Positions 192 through 31,519 of a stretch of DNA of 34,016 bases are shown here, piece by piece. Position 1 is the stretch's first letter, and the number at the start of each line of letters is the position of its first letter. A model generated the notes under the pieces. That model saw only the letters and a program-made list of their open reading frames with translations, was not told the origin of the DNA and did not search any database. The stretch is from Candidatus Ornithomonoglobus merdipullorum (GTDB lineage: Bacteria; Bacillota; Clostridia; UBA1381). Both the position numbers and the translations under genes were made by a program. The stretch spans positions 1 to 34,016 of the forward strand of contig DVNB01000040.1 in assembly GCA_018714695.1 (NCBI GenBank). Reading direction: 5' to 3'.

Positions 192-318
192 TGTTATAGA
201 ATAATCTTGGTGTCGTGTTGCCGACGTGCGTTTTTTCACTTTTTCGGAAAGGCGCTGCGGCAATGTACAGCGTTTGCTGCGCGGCGTTTTGATCGGGATT
301 AATAGTGAGGTGAAGTTG

Positions 319-2232
319 ATGGAAGACAAAAAAGAAGTATTGGGGATCAGTGATTTCCAGACATATTTGTTCAATTCCGGCGACAATTTCAGATCGTACG
401 AGCTGCTCGGCGTTCACCGTATAAAAGACGGAGGCCGCGAGGGCTGGCGCTTTGCGGTATGGGCACCTAATGCGCAGGCGGTGAAGATCGCCTGTGATTC
501 CAACGGGTGGACGGGCAACGGCAAGGAGCTTTCAAAGTACGGCAAGACCGGGATCTGGTACGGATTTTTCACGGATTTTAGCAAGGGAGATCTGTACAAA
601 TATGCGATAACCGCTCCGGACGGAACGGTATATATGCGTTCGGATCCGTACGCGTTCCGCTGTGAGATGCGGCCGGGGACTGCGTCCGAGGTATACGAAT
701 GTTCGAATTTTAGGTGGAGTGACAAAGGCTGGCTCACAAAAAGGGCAAAGAAGGACAATGTCCATAAGCCTATGAATATATATGAGTGTCATGCCGGCTC
801 TTGGAGGATCCACGAGGATGGAAGCTTTTATAATTATGATGAGCTTGCGGACGAGCTGATACCGTATCTCAAGGATATGGGCTATACGCATCTTGAGCTT
901 ATGCCGCTCACGGAGTATCCGTTCGACGGCTCTTGGGGATATCAGGTAACTGGTTACTTTGCCGCTACATCGCGCTACGGCACACCGGAACAGCTGAAAA
1001 GCTTCGTTAATAAGTGCCACAAAGCCGGAATAGCCGTTATCATGGACTGGGTACCGGCGCATTTTCCGCGTGACGCTCACGGTTTGAGACTGTTCGACGG
1101 TACTGCCTGCTACGAGTATGCCGACTGGAGAGAAGGCGAGCACAAGGATTGGGGAACGATGGTGTTTGACTTTGCGAAGGGTGAGGTCATCTCGTTTTTG
1201 TCGTCGTCGGCGCATTTCTGGGCAGAGGAATACCATATGGACGGACTGAGGGTTGACGCCGTGTCGTCCATGCTTTACCGCGATTATTCCAGAAGAGACG
1301 GAGAGTGGGTCGCGAACAAGTACGGCGGCAACGGAAATCTTGAGGCGGTAGATCTGCTGAGGAAGATAAACAAGATAATGGGCGTTGAATCGCCCGGATT
1401 TATAATGATCGCCGAGGAGTCGACCGCATGGCCGCTTGTTACGGCTCCGCCGGAAAATGATGGACTCGGATTCAACTTCAAATGGAACATGGGATGGATG
1501 AACGATACTTTAAGATACGTTTCGATGGATCCGTATTTCAGAAGGGATAATCATTCGCTTCTGACGTTCCTCATGATGTACGCTTATTCGGAGAATTTTA
1601 TACTCCCCCTCTCGCATGACGAGGTCGTGCACGGAAAGAAATCTCTGATAGATAAAATGTACGGTACGTACGAGGAAAAGTTCGCGGCATACAAGACTTT
1701 TCTTACGTATTTTATGACGATGCCGGGCAAAAAACTAATGTTTATGGGAGGTGAAATAGGTCAATTCCTTGAATGGCGTTATGACGATCAGCTTGAATGG
1801 AATGTTCTTGATCTTGAGCCGCACAAAAAGCTCCATGATTATATAAGAACACTCAATCATCTCTATGTTGAAAGCAAGGCGCTTTGGGAGCTTGAGCAGA
1901 GCTGGGACGGCTTCAGATGGATAAACGAGGCCGACAACGAGAACTCGGTGGTTTCTTATATAAGGAGGGGAAAGAGACCGGCGGAGCTGCTCGTTATCGC
2001 CGCAAACTTTACGCCATGCGACAGATTGGGCTATAAGCTCGGTGTTCCGTATGAGGGTGAGTACGAAGTCATACTTCATTCGAATTCAACGGAATTCGGC
2101 GGCAGCAGGAAAATAAATAAGATGGTGTATCATACCCAGAAACTGCAGTTCAGCGATATGGATTACACATTGTCTGTGCCTATCGACGGAAATTCTGCGA
2201 TGATTTTAAAAAGAAAAATTGTAAAGAAATAA
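319..2232 (+). CDS. glgB: 1,4-alpha-glucan branching enzyme GlgB
   Basis: GlgB cuts alpha-1,4 chains and transfers the piece to an alpha-1,6 position, making glycogen branches in the cytoplasm. The protein is 637 aa, the usual length. An N-terminal CBM48-like beta domain is followed by a GH13 barrel with all four signature regions: DWVPAHF; DGLRVDAVSSMLY with nucleophile D313; IAEESTAWP with acid/base E366; and LPLSHDEVVHGK with D434. A C-terminal beta domain ends in MILKRK. I chose ATG 319 because GAGGTG lies just upstream and MEDKKEVLG starts a normal GlgB; the frame is open back to 226, but those 31 codons look like leader. It is first in an operon, 27 bp before glgC. Confidence 0.97.
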   Translation: MEDKKEVLGISDFQTYLFNSGDNFRSYELLGVHRIKDGGREGWRFAVWAPNAQAVKIACDSNGWTGNGKELSKYGKTGIWYGFFTDFSKGDLYKYAITAPDGTVYMRSDPYAFRCEMRPGTASEVYECSNFRWSDKGWLTKRAKKDNVHKPMNIYECHAGSWRIHEDGSFYNYDELADELIPYLKDMGYTHLELMPLTEYPFDGSWGYQVTGYFAATSRYGTPEQLKSFVNKCHKAGIAVIMDWVPAHFPRDAHGLRLFDGTACYEYADWREGEHKDWGTMVFDFAKGEVISFLSSSAHFWAEEYHMDGLRVDAVSSMLYRDYSRRDGEWVANKYGGNGNLEAVDLLRKINKIMGVESPGFIMIAEESTAWPLVTAPPENDGLGFNFKWNMGWMNDTLRYVSMDPYFRRDNHSLLTFLMMYAYSENFILPLSHDEVVHGKKSLIDKMYGTYEEKFAAYKTFLTYFMTMPGKKLMFMGGEIGQFLEWRYDDQLEWNVLDLEPHKKLHDYIRTLNHLYVESKALWELEQSWDGFRWINEADNENSVVSYIRRGKRPAELLVIAANFTPCDRLGYKLGVPYEGEYEVILHSNSTEFGGSRKINKMVYHTQKLQFSDMDYTLSVPIDGNSAMILKRKIVKK

Positions 2233-2259
2233 TTAATTGATTTAGGAGATGATTATATT

Positions 2260-3468
2260 ATGGTATCAAAAAACTGTGTAGCTATGATACTGGCAGGGGG
2301 ACAGGGTTCGAGACTTGGAGCTCTTACCAAGAATGTTGCCAAGCCGGCGGTGCCGTTCGGCGGCAAATACAGGATTATAGACTTCCCTCTTTCAAACTGT
2401 GTTCATTCCGGAATAGATACCGTTGGTGTGCTTACTCAGTATGAGCCGCTCGAGCTCAACACGTATATAGGCAACGGTAATCCGTGGGATCTCGACCGTT
2501 CGCACGGCGGCGCTTACGTGCTTCCGCCCTATCAGAGCGGTGATACGGGAGAATGGTATAAGGGTACAGCAAACGCTATATACCAGAATCTCGGTTTCCT
2601 TGAGGGCTTCAATCCGAAAAACGTTCTGATCCTTTCGGGAGATCACATATATAAGATGCACTATGGTGAGATGCTGAAGGCTCATATCGAGTCCGGCGCT
2701 TCCGCGACCATTGCCGTAATGCCGGTTCCGTGGGAGGAAGCGAGCAGATTCGGAATAATGAATACCGATGAAGAGGGACAGATCGTTGAATTCGAGGAAA
2801 AGCCTGCAGAGCCTAAGAGCAACCTTGCTTCGATGGGTATATACATATTTAAATACGAGACCTTGAAGAAGTACCTCACCGATGACGAAAGAGATGCGAG
2901 CTCGTCAAACGACTTCGGAAAGAACATAATACCGAAGATGCTTGCCGACGGCGAGAAGATGATGTCATACAGATTTGAGGGCTATTGGAAGGACGTAGGT
3001 ACGATACAGTCTCTCTGGGAGGCAAATATGGATCTTATAGACGATCCTCCGAAATTCGACTTGAATGACAGGAGCTGGGTCATCTATTCGAGAAATTATG
3101 CGCTTATGCCTCACTACATGGGTGAGACCGCGCAGATAACAAGATCCACCGTTACAGAGGGCTGCACGATCGACGGAAAGATAGAGCACTCAGTGATATT
3201 CAGCGCGGTAACGGTCGGCAAGGGTGCGGTTATAAGGGATTCGGTAGTAATGCCCGGCGCGGTTATAGGCGACGGAGCGGTTGTAGAGAAGTCGGTCATA
3301 GGTTCCGGCGCGGTTATAGGCGCGAATGCGAAGATAGGAGTGAACCACGAGTCGGAGGATAATCCGTATAAGTCGAAGTACTGCACTCACGGAATAGTTC
3401 TGATAGAGGGCGGAGCAGTTGTTGAAGACGGAGCTGACATATTAAAGGGATCCATGTACCAGGCGTGA
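2260..3468 (+). CDS. glgC: Glucose-1-phosphate adenylyltransferase GlgC (ADP-glucose pyrophosphorylase)
   Basis: GlgC makes ADP-glucose and pyrophosphate from ATP and glucose-1-phosphate, the committed step of bacterial glycogen synthesis. The 402-aa protein opens with the nucleotidyltransferase signature [11 protein letters not shown] and [20 protein letters not shown]. It keeps [22 protein letters not shown], the sugar-phosphate loop around EFEEKP, and EGYWKDVGT. The last 110 residues or so are hexapeptide repeats of a left-handed beta-helix (repeated [10 protein letters not shown]-like units). AGGAG at 2244-2248 supports ATG 2260. It sits 27 bp after glgB and 47 bp before glgD. In Firmicutes GlgC usually works as a heteromer with GlgD, which fits this order. 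Confidence 0.97.
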
Positions 3469-3515
3469 TGAGAGTCCCTCTCTGAATTTAGTTATTGAAA
3501 GGAATGAATTGAATT

Positions 3516-4634
3516 ATGAGACATGATACAATGGGTATTATCCTTACGGGAGATGAGAAAATAGCGCCGTTGACCGATATAAGAGCGAACAGTGCTGTGC
3601 CTATTGCGGGAAGATACAGGATCATAGATTTTGTGTTATCAAATATGGTCAATGCGGGAATAGTTAATGTGGGTGTTGCCACCGAGTCGAACTACTCATC
3701 GCTTATGGATCATATAAGATCGGGTAAGCCGTGGGATCTTGACAGGAAGAAGCAGGGCCTTAACATCCTCCCGCCGAACCTTGAGAAGCAGCAGTTCGGA
3801 CTTATAAAAGGAAATATCGACCTTCTCGCCGGCATCAGCGATTACATACACAGGAGCAACCAGACCTATGTTATTCTGTCACTCGGGAATATGGTTTACA
3901 ATATGGATTTCAATGCGGTATTGGATGCGCATATAGAAAAGCAGGCTGATATAACGGCTGTTTACAAGAACCTCAAAGGAGTTCCCGAGAGCGATCTGAC
4001 TCATTACACTTTGCTTGAGCTCGATGAGGAGAACAGAGTAAAGGATGTTGAGGTACAGCCGTATTATCCCAAGACAACAAATGCGAGCATGGAAATATAT
4101 GTTATGGAGAAGGCTCTTCTTGAAAGCATAGTAGACGAGTGCTCGGCAAGGGGCGACGTTGATTTTGTAAAGGACGCGATCATAAAGAAGATGGGCGGAA
4201 TGCGCATATTCGGCTATGAATTCGAGGGCAAGTGCTACAAGATAGATTCAATGAAATCGTACTACAAGACGAGCATGGATTTCCTGAATGCCGACTACCG
4301 CAAGGAGCTCTTTAATCCGGAGCGTCCGATCTATACAAAGACGAAGGATCAGAGTCCGACAAAGTACGGGGATGAGGCTGTATGCACAAACAGCTTCATA
4401 TCCGACGGATGCGTTATAGAGGGAACGGTAATAAACTCGATACTCTCAAGAGGCGTAAAGATCGCAAAGGGAGCCGTTGTTCAGAATTCCATCATAATGC
4501 AGGACAGCGTTATAGAGGAAGGCGTTGAGCTCAATCACGTCGTATTTGACAAGGAAGTCTGCATAACGAGCGGAAGAAAGCTGATAGGACAGGAGAGCTA
4601 TCCGCTTGCTATAGCAAAGGGAACAAAGATCTGA
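3516..4634 (+). CDS. glgD: GlgD, non-catalytic regulatory partner of GlgC
   Basis: GlgD is the Firmicute paralogue of GlgC that lacks catalytic motifs and modulates the GlgC/GlgD heteromer. The 372-aa protein keeps the fold (RYRIIDFVLSNMVNAGI, PWDLDR, a C-terminal beta-helix) but the N-terminal loop is degenerate: MGIILTGDEKIAPLTDIR replaces the glycine-rich GGQGSRL type, and SLGNMVYNMDF replaces SGDHIYKM. It has the typical YYPKTTNASMEIY stretch. A GAAAGGA site near 3498-3504 precedes ATG 3516. It is the last gene before a GC-rich palindrome and a terminator, so glgBCD probably forms one transcript. Confidence 0.93.
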   Translation: MRHDTMGIILTGDEKIAPLTDIRANSAVPIAGRYRIIDFVLSNMVNAGIVNVGVATESNYSSLMDHIRSGKPWDLDRKKQGLNILPPNLEKQQFGLIKGNIDLLAGISDYIHRSNQTYVILSLGNMVYNMDFNAVLDAHIEKQADITAVYKNLKGVPESDLTHYTLLELDEENRVKDVEVQPYYPKTTNASMEIYVMEKALLESIVDECSARGDVDFVKDAIIKKMGGMRIFGYEFEGKCYKIDSMKSYYKTSMDFLNADYRKELFNPERPIYTKTKDQSPTKYGDEAVCTNSFISDGCVIEGTVINSILSRGVKIAKGAVVQNSIIMQDSVIEEGVELNHVVFDKEVCITSGRKLIGQESYPLAIAKGTKI

Positions 4635-4865: not shown

Positions 4866-6686
4866 ATGAAGGTATTATTCGCAACCTCAGAGTGTGCTCC
4901 GTTTGTGAAGACGGGTGGTTTGGGAGACGTAGCCGGCTCTCTGCCGCAGGCGCTCAGAGAAAAAAATGTTGACGCGAGAGTTGTGCTCCCGCTCTACAAT
5001 TGTATACCGCAGCAGTACAAGGATCAGATGAGATATATAGACCATATATATATCGATATGGCGTGGCGTAAACAGTACTGCGGTATATTTGAATTGGAAT
5101 TCAACAACTGTATATATTATTTTATAGACAATAAGTTTTATTTTAACGGTGATAAGCCGTATGACTATATTCATCTTGACTGCGAGAAATTCATATTCTT
5201 CTCAAAGGCAGTGTTGTCTATTCTTCCGACGATAGGTTTCAGACCTGATGTTATAAACTGCAACGATTGGCAGACAGGCCCTATCCCGGTATTTCTGGAC
5301 ACATTCCAGGACAACCCGTTCTTCAGAGGTATCAAGACCGTTATAACCATTCACAATCTTAAGTTCCAGGGACGCTGGGATTTTAAAGGCATCAAGGATG
5401 CGATGGGCATTTCGGATTATTATTTCACTCCGGACAAGATGGAGTATTACAAGGATGCCAATCTGTTAAAGGGCGGCATGGTATATGCCAATAAGATATC
5501 CACGGTTTCGAACACATATGCCGATGAGATAACGACTCCGCAGTACGGAGAGGGTCTTGACTCGCTCCTGCGTGCAAGACGCGGTGATCTTGTCGGGATA
5601 GTAAACGGTATATCATACGATGACTGGAACCCGTCAAAGGACGGTTTTATAACAAAGAAATATAACACAAGAACAATAAAGGCAGGCAAGGCCGCGAACA
5701 AGGCGCAGCTTCAGCGCGAGATGAGTCTGCCGGAGGATCCGGATAAGATGCTGATAGGTATAGTGTCTCGTCTTACGGATCAGAAGGGCTTTGACCTCAT
5801 AGCGTATAAGCTTGAGGACCTCTGCAACGGCGGCGCACAGATAGTTGTTTTGGGAACCGGGGAAGAGCAGTATGAGAACCTGTTCAGACATTATTCATGG
5901 AAGTATCCGGATAGGTTTGCCGCGCGCATAACATATTCGAATGAGCTTTCGCATAAGATATATGCGGGATGCGATGCGTTTTTGATGCCGTCGGCATTTG
6001 AGCCGTGCGGTCTGTCGCAGCTCATATCGATGCATTACGGAACTGTTCCGATCGTCCGCGAGACCGGCGGACTTAAGGATACGGTAATACCGTATAACAA
6101 ATACACCGGCGAGGGAACGGGATTCACGTTTGCAAATTACAACGCGGACGATATGATCCAGTGTGTATGGCGGTCTATGGATGTTTATTATAACAACAAG
6201 GATGCATGGTACTCGATCGCCAGACACGGTATGGATGCGGATTACTCATGGGGCGTGTCGGCTGAAAAATATATAGATATGTACTGTGAGCTCACCGGAC
6301 TTGAGAGACCGTCTTCCGGGGATATAAAAAAAAACAGTAAACCCGAGTGGGATCTAGAAAACTTGCCTGATTTCGCCGAGCGTATCCGCGGAGATTTCGC
6401 GAATTCGGAAAGCGCTCTTGAGCAGCTGGCGGCAGAACGAGGCGTGATAGAGGTGCCCGATCCGTTCGGCGGCGACGGTCCCGAGGCGGATCCTCGCGAG
6501 GTGAAAAAGCCGGCTAAAAAAACGGCAAAGAGTACAAGATCGAAAAAGACGGGGACCGCGGCGTCAAAGAGCAGGACAACGAAGCCAAAGGCAAATGTCG
6601 GTGATGCTGTGGAAAGACTTGAAAAGGCAGTTTCGGCAACGACAAAAACAGCTAAAAAGACCACGAAAAGGACAAAAAAGTCCTGA
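4866..6686 (+). CDS. glgA: Glycogen synthase GlgA with a lysine-rich C-terminal tail
   Basis: GlgA (family GT5) adds glucose from ADP-glucose to the non-reducing end of glycogen. The N-terminal ADP-glucose loop KTGGLGDVAGSLP, TPQYGEGLDSLLRAR, SRLTDQKGFDLI and the catalytic-site stretch EPCGLSQLISMHYGTVPI with RETGGLKDT are all present. The catalytic core ends near residue 480 (MYCELTGLERP), the normal length of the family. About 125 further residues follow: an acidic/polar linker (481-545), then from about 546 a stretch dominated by Lys, Ala, Thr, Ser and Arg (KKPAKKTAKSTRSKK and similar to the stop) that resembles histone-H1-like tails. The codons match the rest of the gene and no frameshift is visible. 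AAAGGAA precedes ATG 4866. Confidence 0.95.
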   Translation: MKVLFATSECAPFVKTGGLGDVAGSLPQALREKNVDARVVLPLYNCIPQQYKDQMRYIDHIYIDMAWRKQYCGIFELEFNNCIYYFIDNKFYFNGDKPYDYIHLDCEKFIFFSKAVLSILPTIGFRPDVINCNDWQTGPIPVFLDTFQDNPFFRGIKTVITIHNLKFQGRWDFKGIKDAMGISDYYFTPDKMEYYKDANLLKGGMVYANKISTVSNTYADEITTPQYGEGLDSLLRARRGDLVGIVNGISYDDWNPSKDGFITKKYNTRTIKAGKAANKAQLQREMSLPEDPDKMLIGIVSRLTDQKGFDLIAYKLEDLCNGGAQIVVLGTGEEQYENLFRHYSWKYPDRFAARITYSNELSHKIYAGCDAFLMPSAFEPCGLSQLISMHYGTVPIVRETGGLKDTVIPYNKYTGEGTGFTFANYNADDMIQCVWRSMDVYYNNKDAWYSIARHGMDADYSWGVSAEKYIDMYCELTGLERPSSGDIKKNSKPEWDLENLPDFAERIRGDFANSESALEQLAAERGVIEVPDPFGGDGPEADPREVKKPAKKTAKSTRSKKTGTAASKSRTTKPKANVGDAVERLEKAVSATTKTAKKTTKRTKKS

Positions 6687-6760: not shown

Positions 6761-9232
6761 ATGGCAGTAAAAACAACCAAGAAGCTCACTCCTCAGCAGG
6801 AGGCGCTTAAAAGCGACATCATAGGAAAAGTAAACAGACATTTCGGAAAGATCCTTGAGGAAGCTACACCGCATATGATATATGCGGCATGCGCGCTTAC
6901 CGTACGAGACAGAATCATGGAAAAATGGGCTGTTTCGCATCAGGAAGTAAAAAAAGAGGGATCAAAGAAGCTGTATTATTTGTCCTTTGAATTCCTTATG
7001 GGAAGACTCCTTTGCACGAATATACTGAACCTTATGCAGACCGAGGATTATAAGGCGGTTCTTGAGGATCTCGGGTATTCGCTTGAAGAGGTGGCGGAGC
7101 TTGAAAATGATGCAGGTCTCGGAAACGGCGGACTGGGACGTCTTGCGGCGTGTTTCATAGATTCGCTCACGACGCTTGATCTTCCGGCGTACGGATGCAC
7201 ACTCAGATATGAGTATGGCCTGTTCAGGCAGAAGATCGTTGACGGATATCAGACGGAGCTCCCGGATTCATGGCTGGAGTACGGAAATGCATGGGAAGTA
7301 GCGCGTCCCGAGGAGGCTGTGAAGGTCACATTCGGCGGCGATGTTCACACGACCTGGGAAAACGGATCGATGAAGATCAGCTACAGCAATGAGAGATCGG
7401 TTATAGCTATGCCGTATGATGTTCCGTTATGCGGATATGACTCAAAGGTCGTAAACAAGCTCAGGCTCTGGAGCGCAAAATCAGCGACCGATTTTGATAT
7501 GCGCGCATTCAATCAGGGTGATTATGTAAGAGCTATGGAGGAAAAAGAGCTTGCGGAGGTCATCTCCAAGGTTCTTTATCCCGAGGATAATCATACAGAG
7601 GGAAAGGAGCTGCGCTTAAAGCAGCAGTATTTCCTTGTTTCGGCAACACTGCAGTGGATACTCAAGGAATTTGAGATGAGAAACGGAGAGGATTGGGATC
7701 TGCTTCCCGAGAAGGTCGTTATCCACATAAACGATACTCATCCTACCATGGCTATCCCGGAGATGATGCGTCTGCTTATGGACGAAAAGGGACTCGGCTG
7801 GGATGAAGCATGGGAGATCGTTACGCATGTGTTTGCGTATACGAACCATACGGTAATGAGCGAGGCGCTTGAGAAATGGCCGCAGGATATGTTCAGAAGG
7901 ATCCTTCCGAGACTGTACATGATCCTTGAGGAGATGAACAGACGTCTTATGGAAAGGCTCGAGGCGTCCTATCCCGGAGACAGCGCAAAGCACAGATACA
8001 TGGCTATACTTGCCGACAATCAGGTATCGATGGCTAATACATGTCTTGCAAGCTGCTTTGCTGTAAACGGTGTATCGAAGCTTCACACGGATATCCTTAA
8101 GAATGATATATTCAAGGATTATTATCTGATGGATAAGGACAGATTCCATGCCATAACAAACGGTATAACGTTCAGAAGATGGATAGCAAACTGCAATCCG
8201 GCGCTTACAAAGCTTATAGACGATACTATAGGAGAGGGCTGGCTCAAGGATGCCGACAAGCTTTCCAAGCTTGCCGACTATGCCGAGGATCCGGTGTTCC
8301 AGAAGAAGTTTGACGCGATAAAGAATGCGAATAAGAAGATGGTGGCGGACTATATCCTTGAACACAACGGCATCAAGGTAGATCCCAATTCTATCTTTGA
8401 CATACAGTGTAAGAGACTGCATGAGTATAAGCGCCAGATGATGAATGTTCTGCATATATTGGCGGAGTATAACAGGATACTCAGTGACAAGGCATACGCG
8501 GAAAGCTATTATCCGAAGACGTATATCTTCGGCGCCAAGGCTGCGCCGGGTTACAAGAGAGCAAAGCTTATCATCAAGCTTATCAACTCTGTGGGTGAGC
8601 TTATCAATAATGACGAGCGCATAAATGATAAGATAAAGGTCGTATTTGTGGAGAACTACGGTGTATCGATCGCTGAAAAGCTCGTAACTGCGGCGGATGT
8701 TTCGGAGCAGATCTCAACTGCCGGAAAAGAGGCATCCGGAACAGGAAACATGAAGTTTATGCTTAACGGCGCGGTTACGGTAGGGACCATGGACGGTGCG
8801 AATGTTGAAATGTATGAGCAGGTAGGCGATGACAACATCTATATATTCGGACTGCGTTCGGATGAGGTCGCTGCAAGAGAGCGCATACCCGGCGGAGACG
8901 AGGTAAAGAATATCTATGCCACGAACGCTGTGCTGCGTCACGCACTTGAGCAGCTTATAGACGGAAGCATCGTTCCAGAGAATACAAATCTGTTCATGGA
9001 TCTGTATAACACACTTCTTTTCGGAGATTACGGATATCCGGATACCTACATGGTCCTCAGAGATTTTGAGGATTATATGAAGACTCAGGAACAGATATCC
9101 AAGGATTATCAGGACAGATCAAAGTGGATCGCTAAACAGATCATGAATACTGCAATGTCGGGATATTTCTCGAGTGACAGAACTATTCGCGAGTATAACG
9201 ATCAGATCTGGCATCTGGAGCCTATCAAATAA
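6761..9232 (+). CDS. glgP: Glycogen/alpha-glucan phosphorylase GlgP
   Basis: GlgP releases glucose-1-phosphate from glycogen chains by phosphorolysis with pyridoxal phosphate as cofactor. The 823-aa length is standard for GT35. Recognisable stretches include YLSFEFLMGRLL near the N-terminus, GNGGLGRLAACF, INDTHPTMAIPEMMR, FDIQCKRLHEYKRQ and the cofactor site EASGTGNMKF, where K665 should carry PLP. AAGGAGA (6746-6752) precedes ATG 6761. The gene follows glgA by 74 bp without a clear promoter or terminator; the gap has only two short hairpins (ATCGGC/GCCGAT at 6703-6718 and TCCGT/ACGGA at 6726-6739). Co-transcription with glgA puts glycogen synthesis and breakdown under one promoter. Confidence 0.97.
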   Translation: MAVKTTKKLTPQQEALKSDIIGKVNRHFGKILEEATPHMIYAACALTVRDRIMEKWAVSHQEVKKEGSKKLYYLSFEFLMGRLLCTNILNLMQTEDYKAVLEDLGYSLEEVAELENDAGLGNGGLGRLAACFIDSLTTLDLPAYGCTLRYEYGLFRQKIVDGYQTELPDSWLEYGNAWEVARPEEAVKVTFGGDVHTTWENGSMKISYSNERSVIAMPYDVPLCGYDSKVVNKLRLWSAKSATDFDMRAFNQGDYVRAMEEKELAEVISKVLYPEDNHTEGKELRLKQQYFLVSATLQWILKEFEMRNGEDWDLLPEKVVIHINDTHPTMAIPEMMRLLMDEKGLGWDEAWEIVTHVFAYTNHTVMSEALEKWPQDMFRRILPRLYMILEEMNRRLMERLEASYPGDSAKHRYMAILADNQVSMANTCLASCFAVNGVSKLHTDILKNDIFKDYYLMDKDRFHAITNGITFRRWIANCNPALTKLIDDTIGEGWLKDADKLSKLADYAEDPVFQKKFDAIKNANKKMVADYILEHNGIKVDPNSIFDIQCKRLHEYKRQMMNVLHILAEYNRILSDKAYAESYYPKTYIFGAKAAPGYKRAKLIIKLINSVGELINNDERINDKIKVVFVENYGVSIAEKLVTAADVSEQISTAGKEASGTGNMKFMLNGAVTVGTMDGANVEMYEQVGDDNIYIFGLRSDEVAARERIPGGDEVKNIYATNAVLRHALEQLIDGSIVPENTNLFMDLYNTLLFGDYGYPDTYMVLRDFEDYMKTQEQISKDYQDRSKWIAKQIMNTAMSGYFSSDRTIREYNDQIWHLEPIK

Positions 9233-30691: not shown

Positions 30692-30724
30692 TATTATGAA
30701 TACTGTTGTTTCCGTATTTTTTTT

Positions 30725-31519
30725 TCAGTTAAGCAGTGCGCGGTCGTTAGCGAACTCCTCGCCGCTCAGATCTGCGAATTTCTTTAAGAGATCGTCAACA
30801 GTGAGCTTCTTCTTCTCTTCCCCGCTCACATCGTATATTACACGTCCCTCATGCATCATGATAAGCCGGTTGCCGTGGGTTATGGCATCCTTCATGTTGT
30901 GCGTTATCATGAGGGTAGTAAGGTTTCCTTCTGAAATGAATTTCTCCGAAAGCTCAAGGACAGTTTCGGCTGTTTTCGGATCCAGCGCAGCCGTGTGCTC
31001 GTCAAGCAGCAGGAGCTTAGGCTTTCTCATTACCGCCATAAGCAGTGTGAGCGCCTGGCGCTGACCGCCTGAAAGCAATCCGACCTTGCTTGAAAGCCTG
31101 TCCTCAAGACCGAGCCCGAGCTGACTCAGCATTTCCCTGTACATCTTGCGCTCCTTGGAGGTTATCGCCCACTTGAGACCGCGGCTCATTCCGCGCCGGT
31201 ATGCCAACGACATGTTTTCCTCTATCCACATATCCGCTGCTGTGCCCATCATAGGATCCTGAAAGACCCTTCCGAGATATTTTGCGCGCTTGTGCTCCGG
31301 CAGGCGGGTAACATCCTTGCCGTCTATAACTATGCTCCCCGAGTCTACCGGGAAAACGCCGCAGATACTGTTTAAAAGCGTCGATTTTCCGGCGCCGTTT
31401 CCGCCTATTATCGTAACGAAATCGCCCTCGTTAAGCTCAAGATCCACTCCGTTCAAGGCGCGTTTTTCGTTGATCGTTCCCCTGTTAAAGGTCTTGTAAA
31501 CGCCGTTTATCTTAAGCAT
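30725..31519 (-). CDS. ABC importer ATP-binding protein (TrpZ-like)
   Basis: The 264-aa ATPase of a three-gene importer. It has Walker A GGNGAGKST (K45), Q-loop RVFQDPMMGT, signature LLSGGQRQAL, Walker B LLLLDEHTAALDP and switch His in MITHNMKDA, all intact. The DEHTAALDP form and the MGTAADMWIEENMSLAYRRG stretch are typical of ATPases paired with the TrpX/TrpY-like solute-binding protein and permease. The start codon overlaps the permease stop by one base (TAATG), so the two are translationally coupled. It is the last gene of the operon. Confidence 0.93.
   Translation of the reverse strand: MLKINGVYKTFNRGTINEKRALNGVDLELNEGDFVTIIGGNGAGKSTLLNSICGVFPVDSGSIVIDGKDVTRLPEHKRAKYLGRVFQDPMMGTAADMWIEENMSLAYRRGMSRGLKWAITSKERKMYREMLSQLGLGLEDRLSSKVGLLSGGQRQALTLLMAVMRKPKLLLLDEHTAALDPKTAETVLELSEKFISEGNLTTLMITHNMKDAITHGNRLIMMHEGRVIYDVSGEEKKKLTVDDLLKKFADLSGEEFANDRALLN

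Follow-up and report, generated by a model that had tools for sequence, protein, structure and literature searches.

A conserved C-terminal tail on a clostridial glycogen synthase and a candidate slippage site at its junction

In the Clostridia lineage of Candidatus Ornithomonoglobus merdipullorum, the glycogen synthase GlgA is a two-part protein, made of an ordinary glycogen synthase followed by a tail predicted to be disordered. We analyzed a stretch of 34,016 nucleotides (the whole of it hereafter the window; assembly GCA_018714695.1, contig DVNB01000040.1), in which the glgA open reading frame occupies positions 4866-6686 on the + strand and encodes 606 residues in an unbroken frame. Judged from the sequences of relatives, the tail is almost certainly real and conserved, and a run of nine adenines (A9) at the core/tail junction is probably a selected recoding element. 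The explanation that we consider best, which rests on analogy and to which we give slightly less than an even chance, is that GlgA and its glycogen are positioned by a tail that binds DNA or some other polyanion, with slippage at the run setting the ratio of tailed to tailless enzyme. The conserved module of the tail, the A9 site and the logic of two products go beyond the initial annotation of this DNA, which had pointed out the tail itself.

The tail of GlgA and its relatives

The family model NF001898 matched residues 1-477 of the window's GlgA with 624 bits (cut-off 603), as expected for a full-length GT5 glycogen synthase, and this catalytic core (4866..6296, + strand) was also delimited using Pfam Glyco_transf_5, an AlphaFold model and solved GlgA structures. 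The same match ended at 473-477 in seven of nine listed solved-structure sequences and at 414 and 416 in the other two. The core is modelled confidently, with a pLDDT of at least 90 at 400 of the 606 residues of the protein. The initial annotation had placed the end of the core at about residue 480, in agreement with the end of the match at 477 and a tail that starts at about 479. The gene stands in a row with the order glgB-glgC-glgD-glgA-phosphorylase-amylase-type gene, with glgB, glgC and glgD upstream (226..4634, + strand) and the glycogen phosphorylase gene downstream (6761..9232, + strand).

From the alignment of relatives and AlphaFold pLDDT, we delimited the tail to residues 479-606 (128 residues; 6300..6683, + strand). 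Its first 67 residues have a net charge of -9 and its last 61 a net charge of +18 (17 K, 4 R, 12 T and 9 A). The first part had been described as a polar, acidic linker: it is acidic, but it also contains a conserved module, FAERIRGDFANSESALEQLAAERGVIEVPDPF (residues 503-534; 6372..6467, + strand), which was found by pattern, consensus, profile and AlphaFold and includes a weak predicted helix at residues 503-523. The second part, a histone-H1-like stretch rich in K, A and T (residues 546-606; 6501..6683, + strand), runs to the stop as had been annotated, and has 2 prolines in 61 residues and hence no KPAA repeat. When the C-terminal 60 residues of 22 ORFs of the window were compared, GlgA was the sole protein with such an end (net charge +18, the next highest being +5). 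The pLDDT is below 50 at residues 486-501 and 524-606, which would correspond to disorder. A Pfam scan of residues 479-606 returned no family at an E-value of 1, and a search of its own genome with the tail as a query retrieved GlgA alone, with the proviso that the handling of low-complexity sequence may hide other matches. We also considered the module as docked on the GlgA core and set this aside, the AlphaFold model giving it no confident placement there.

To compare relatives, we searched the 70 genomes of the family and found a GlgA match in 64 of them. We left out G017 and G027, where the gene runs off the contig inside the core, as well as an N-terminal piece from G061, and dropped L010 and L065 as second copies of L064 and L009, yielding 63 distinct genes (62 where L048, identical to L047, was also left out). 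These two loci have identical core and tail in genomes assigned to different genera (L047 in G063, L048 in G055), probably through a binning mix-up. At least 41 residues follow the core in 58 of the 63 genes. The five others comprise L049, L059 and L063, which end 10-22 residues past the core, L039, which is cut by the contig end, and L064, whose tail is out of frame. With the tail in frame at the same locus in so many sister species, a frameshift or assembly error as its origin is ruled out; the view that the tail is no sequencing error thus stood up to the comparison with close relatives that had been proposed as its check, with the single exception of genome G037 (locus L064), where the tail is out of frame at A9.

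Beyond the family, GlgA open frames of families f3 and f4 of the same order spanned 456-519 codons, one being truncated, and family f2 gave no GlgA match, so that in this order a long tail is a mark of the window's family. Outside the family, 58 of 69 GlgA loci had at most 6 extra residues, 8 had at least 71 and 3 were cut by contig ends (that is, long tails in 8 of 66 uncut loci), which bears out for this sample the statement that bacterial GlgA normally ends at the core. Four of the eight long tails (L122, L124, L125 and L126, from other Clostridia) consist of K/A/P/T repeats of 90-174 residues, in which we saw no NPF module by eye and found no run of A8 or longer. The other four (L144, L148, L150 and L175, from Halanaerobiales and Fuchsiella) carry a helix-hairpin-helix domain after the core (HHH_3, PF12836), with E-values of about 1e-20 or lower in the three loci that were scanned (L144, L150 and L175) and assigned in L148 by its likeness to L144. 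The Fuchsiella protein has a DUF4912 domain in addition. Among 38 genomes of the order of L148, 32 have a GlgA core, and a hand count among the matches listed gave 26 of these with the domain on GlgA. Six further outside loci (L108, L165, L119, L135, L170 and L149), chosen as checks or for a tblastn match that seemed long, were inspected for a tail hidden behind the stop and none was seen.

A strict pattern detected the module in 38 of the 63 family tails. From 26 of its copies we derived the consensus FxExIKxDxExSxxAxxxxAxEPxxxEVxNPF (in a shorter form, F..xI..D...S......A.EP..V.V.NPF) and a profile, which matched GlgA in 14 of 16 genomes of the genus with E-values of 6e-13 to 6e-18 and nothing else in these genomes better than 0.3. 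A general targeting peptide common to other proteins is therefore ruled out within the genus, the significant matches being to GlgA alone. By eye, L030 has a looser copy and genus g15 (L043, L047, L053-L056 and L058) a diverged one, F..xI..D..xSE..WA.E...KDK, after which comes a longer stretch that looks helical. The basic part precedes the module in L036, L037 and L038, all of genus g2, and two of these proteins end in NPFEEK; given this swapped order, module and basic part are separable. From eleven close pairs, used where dS was unsaturated (several tail comparisons were saturated), we obtained dN/dS values of 0.008-0.086 for the core, 0.02-0.38 for linker and module and 0-0.25 for the K/A/T part, indicating that the tail is under purifying selection that is weaker than that on the core. 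The K/A/T part changes fast, with insertions and deletions.

The A9 run and the stops beside it

The run lies at 6326..6334 (+ strand) and is proposed as a slippage site from its conservation and from simulation of synonymous codons. The codons of this gene had been annotated as showing no break: the frame is indeed unbroken, but A9 lies within the opening codons of the tail, and its conservation suggests programmed slippage. One clade of the window's genus has exactly A9 in each of its nine species (codons xTA AAA AAA AAC/AAG), and the run is missing in the other 6 of the 15 genus members examined. Ten loci from five other genera also have exactly A9, in another register (GAA AAA AAA ACN), and variants were found in L044 and L061 (A10), L043 (A9 farther in) and L042 (A8 close to the standard site, tail in frame). 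Altogether, 22 of 62 tails (22 of 63 with the duplicate L048) have a run of A9 or longer within their first 75 nt, representing 9 of 16 genera; the run is absent from the other 40, implying that two forms of GlgA are not needed everywhere. No such run occurs later in the same tails, though 35 later sites could hold one, and the out-of-frame tail of G037 likewise has none.

We then redrew synonymous codons from the usage of each gene in 2000 draws. Junction runs were expected in 4.5 tails (maximum 11) against 22 observed, and later runs in 4.3 tails against 0 observed, an absence reached in 0.15% of draws (P 0.0015). These simulations and the contingency statistics below treat related loci as independent, and the main guard against a bias from shared ancestry is the difference in registers together with repeated changes on the tree: on the best tree of the core (61 family rows and 3 outgroup rows), presence of the run changes 10 times, 6 of them forced by well-supported branches. 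The nine A9 species use an identical codon at 34 of the 364 conserved positions of the core and at 3 of its 28 conserved Lys positions. AAA is kept throughout these species at none of the 28 conserved core Lys codons versus both Lys codons of the junction.

The window's own genome has 25 exact A9 places, 4 of which lie in the sense strand of open frames longer than 400 codons, one being glgA and the others L179, L182 and L185. Two further A9 runs are found in the window, at 46-54 upstream of glgB (+ strand) and at 30717-30725, overlapping the end of the - strand ORF 30725-31519.

In silico, addition of one A to the run (+1A), or a -1 ribosomal shift, would lead to a TAA at 6338..6340 (+ strand) and a short form of 491 residues, and loss of one A (-1A) to a TAG at 6355..6357 (+ strand) and a form of 496 residues. 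Such stops accompany the run in the family: at least one of the two other frames meets a stop within 3 codons in 20 of 22 tails with the run versus 13 of 40 without (62 tails; in those without, the comparison place was the longest A stretch near the junction). Setting L043 and L064 aside, we compared the stops of the 20 standard loci, all in frame with A9 or A10, with 1000 draws in which the amino acids were held. A stop within 2 codons in another frame was seen in 20 of 20 loci (simulation mean 7.8, maximum 14), and both other frames were closed within 8 codons in 19 of 20 (mean 4.25, maximum 11). At PEK junctions, the +1A frame closes within 2 codons in all ten loci that have the run and in none of the eight that lack it; of these eight, L058 is only loosely comparable. 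The Thr codon after the run is ACT in 9 of the 10 PEK loci with the run, though ACT makes up 60 of 392 Thr codons in these genes.

Structure in the RNA was also considered. A 6-bp hairpin formed by the codons for TGIYDLPE directly 5' of A9 was found in 6 of 10 A9 loci versus 2 of 13 loci without the run, and allowing wobble pairs gave no better separation (14 of 20 versus 20 of 26). As a specific stimulator, this hairpin is unsupported beyond the amino-acid constraint, the single favourable figure being a p of 0.029 from a permutation among the ten A9 loci. A scan of the window for RNA families gave none at the gathering score.

Proposed recoding and competing readings

In the mechanism that we propose, RNA polymerase would add or drop an A at the junction, and the nearby stops in both other frames would turn one gene into a tailed GlgA (606 aa) and a tailless one (491 or 496 aa), with slippage setting the ratio between the two. 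We infer slippage in the cell, and with it the two proteins, from the pattern of run and stops; the slipped fraction is not a quantity that can be read from sequence. Bacteria differ in the length of run against which there is selection (in the available part of PMC1088944). At L064 (G037:C36:24500-28500) the zero frame stops right after A9 and the tail follows in the +1A frame: production of the tail at this locus would take slippage, unless the assembly dropped a base.

The same two products could arise by -1 ribosomal frameshifting on A_AAA_AAA, which yields the same frame as +1A, such that sequence alone cannot separate the two. The heptamer is in frame in both main registers, and tRNA-Lys(UUU) is the sole Lys tRNA among 28 tRNA places, a feature to which the shift-prone site of E. 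coli dnaX has been linked (excerpts of PMC5009743); with the genome 86% complete, tRNA content is not decisive between ribosomal and polymerase slippage. We regard the ribosomal route as unlikely, since 7 A's would suffice for the heptamer but 19 loci keep 9 and 2 loci keep 10, the nearest stop in L006 and L007 is in the -1A frame, and structure downstream of the run gave no consistent signal over 21 loci (mean z -0.65). We also find it quite improbable that Lys-rich coding by itself produced the run and that the tail is an extension either neutral or serving solubility. That 57% of the Lys codons of the tail are AAA, that the K/A/T parts evolve fast with indels and that L049, L059 and L063 do without a tail all fit such a reading, and a K/A/T tail could serve solubility; the depletion of later runs in the same Lys-rich tails, the co-occurrence of stops with runs, the conserved module and the retention of the tail in most of the family argue against it. 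We give least credence to phase variation at the DNA level, by which replication slippage in the tract would toggle the tail between cells and which we consider very improbable. A9 is mutable in principle, the tail of G037 is out of frame at the run and L042 has eight A's, though in frame; against this, run length hardly varies from species to species (A9 in 19 and A10 in 2 of the 21 loci at the standard site, 20 of them with the tail in frame), and the tract is still A9 in G037, the sole off case. Polymerase slippage at a selected run remains our preferred account of the junction.

What the tail would bind is a separate question. Binding to nucleic acid or another polyanion is plausible from its composition, the low AlphaFold confidence, the helix-hairpin-helix domain on the GlgA of Halanaerobiales and the histone-like character of PhaM, PhaF and AlgP. 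Through such binding, GlgA and nascent glycogen would be held on the nucleoid, a role like that of those three proteins for granules of PHB and polyphosphate. By this analogy we infer a DNA or nucleoid tether, though tentatively and at odds not quite even. Basic disordered tails are promiscuous, and binding to another polyanion or partner in place of DNA (polyphosphate, RNA or ribosomes, the membrane, or a glycogen enzyme through the NPF module) is a real if somewhat doubtful possibility. Besides that promiscuity, it would accommodate a module that is GlgA-specific within the genus, as a dedicated partner might require, and the basic part that precedes the module in the three genus g2 members. 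In favour of DNA, the GlgA of Halanaerobiales has a DNA-binding type of domain in the corresponding position, and the nearest functional analogues bind DNA in the accounts available to us. Taken together with the recoding site, these analogies suggest, as a possibility that we rate below even, a storage-polymer synthase that encodes its own nucleoid tether and, through programmed slippage of RNA polymerase, is made in a tethered and a free form.

Comparison with known systems

We searched the literature by titles, starts of abstracts and term counts, mostly among papers outside subscription, and within that scope found no account of a tailed GlgA, of slippage in GlgA or of a fusion of GlgA with HhH. 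The available parts of recoding papers, checked for glycogen/glgA, and of a glycogen review, checked for tail terms, gave nothing. To our knowledge, the positioning and inheritance of glycogen granules in bacteria have been little studied. Glycogen accumulates at the old pole of an E. coli csrA mutant and excludes the chromosome (excerpts of PMC4836754). If our reading is true, a GlgA that carries its own tether would directly explain how glycogen granules are positioned and inherited, and the A9 site would be a natural means of setting how much of the enzyme is tethered. Where slippage gives a truncated product, predicting function from sequence comparison is difficult (available text of PMC1088944); the evidence assembled here, with a run kept across codon registers, no runs later in the tail and stops that appear and vanish with the run, shows one way to detect such cases.

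Compared with ordinary bacterial GlgA (GT5; NF001898), the window's protein is alike over residues 1-477 and differs by its 128-residue tail and A9 junction. The nearest parallel for the junction is dnaX of Thermus thermophilus, where, in the available parts of PMC1088944 and PMC5009743, A9 and nearby stops in other frames give about half short product (tau/gamma). Both genes have a sense-strand A9 late in the gene, the long form in the zero frame and close stops in the other frames, and the glgA run, of at least 9 A's, is kept beyond codon needs. Whereas slippage and both products were measured in Thermus, the case of glgA is known from its sequence; it is also a different gene, with the run in 9 of 16 genera of a family and in more than one codon register.

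For the tail, the closest parallels are the proteins that tether PHB granules to the nucleoid, PhaM and PhaF through histone-like domains and PhaH through a helix-hairpin-helix (available text of PMC13052382, in which the word glycogen is absent), and AlgP of Pseudomonas aeruginosa, whose KPAA tail is needed for polyphosphate granule positioning (excerpts of PMC9239181). By analogy, GlgA shows the same two kinds of appendage as the PHB tethers, a basic K/A-rich tail or a helix-hairpin-helix on a protein of a storage polymer, which is the best guide to its function. The histone-like tail and the helix-hairpin-helix on the GlgA of unrelated bacteria would then be convergence on glycogen-DNA tethering by two routes. 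PhaF, PhaM and PhaH, likened here without a direct comparison of tail sequences, are separate granule proteins, whereas the GlgA tail is on the synthase itself and the polymer is glycogen. AlgP likewise has a disordered, histone-H1-like C-terminal domain and differs by its KPAA repeats; of the features of such tethers, GlgA has the disordered, Lys/Ala-rich basic C-terminal tail and lacks the proline-rich repeats of KPAA type found in AlgP and PhaF. If the proposal is true, GlgA would be the glycogen counterpart of PhaM, PhaF and AlgP, with a dnaX-style decoding of its tail.
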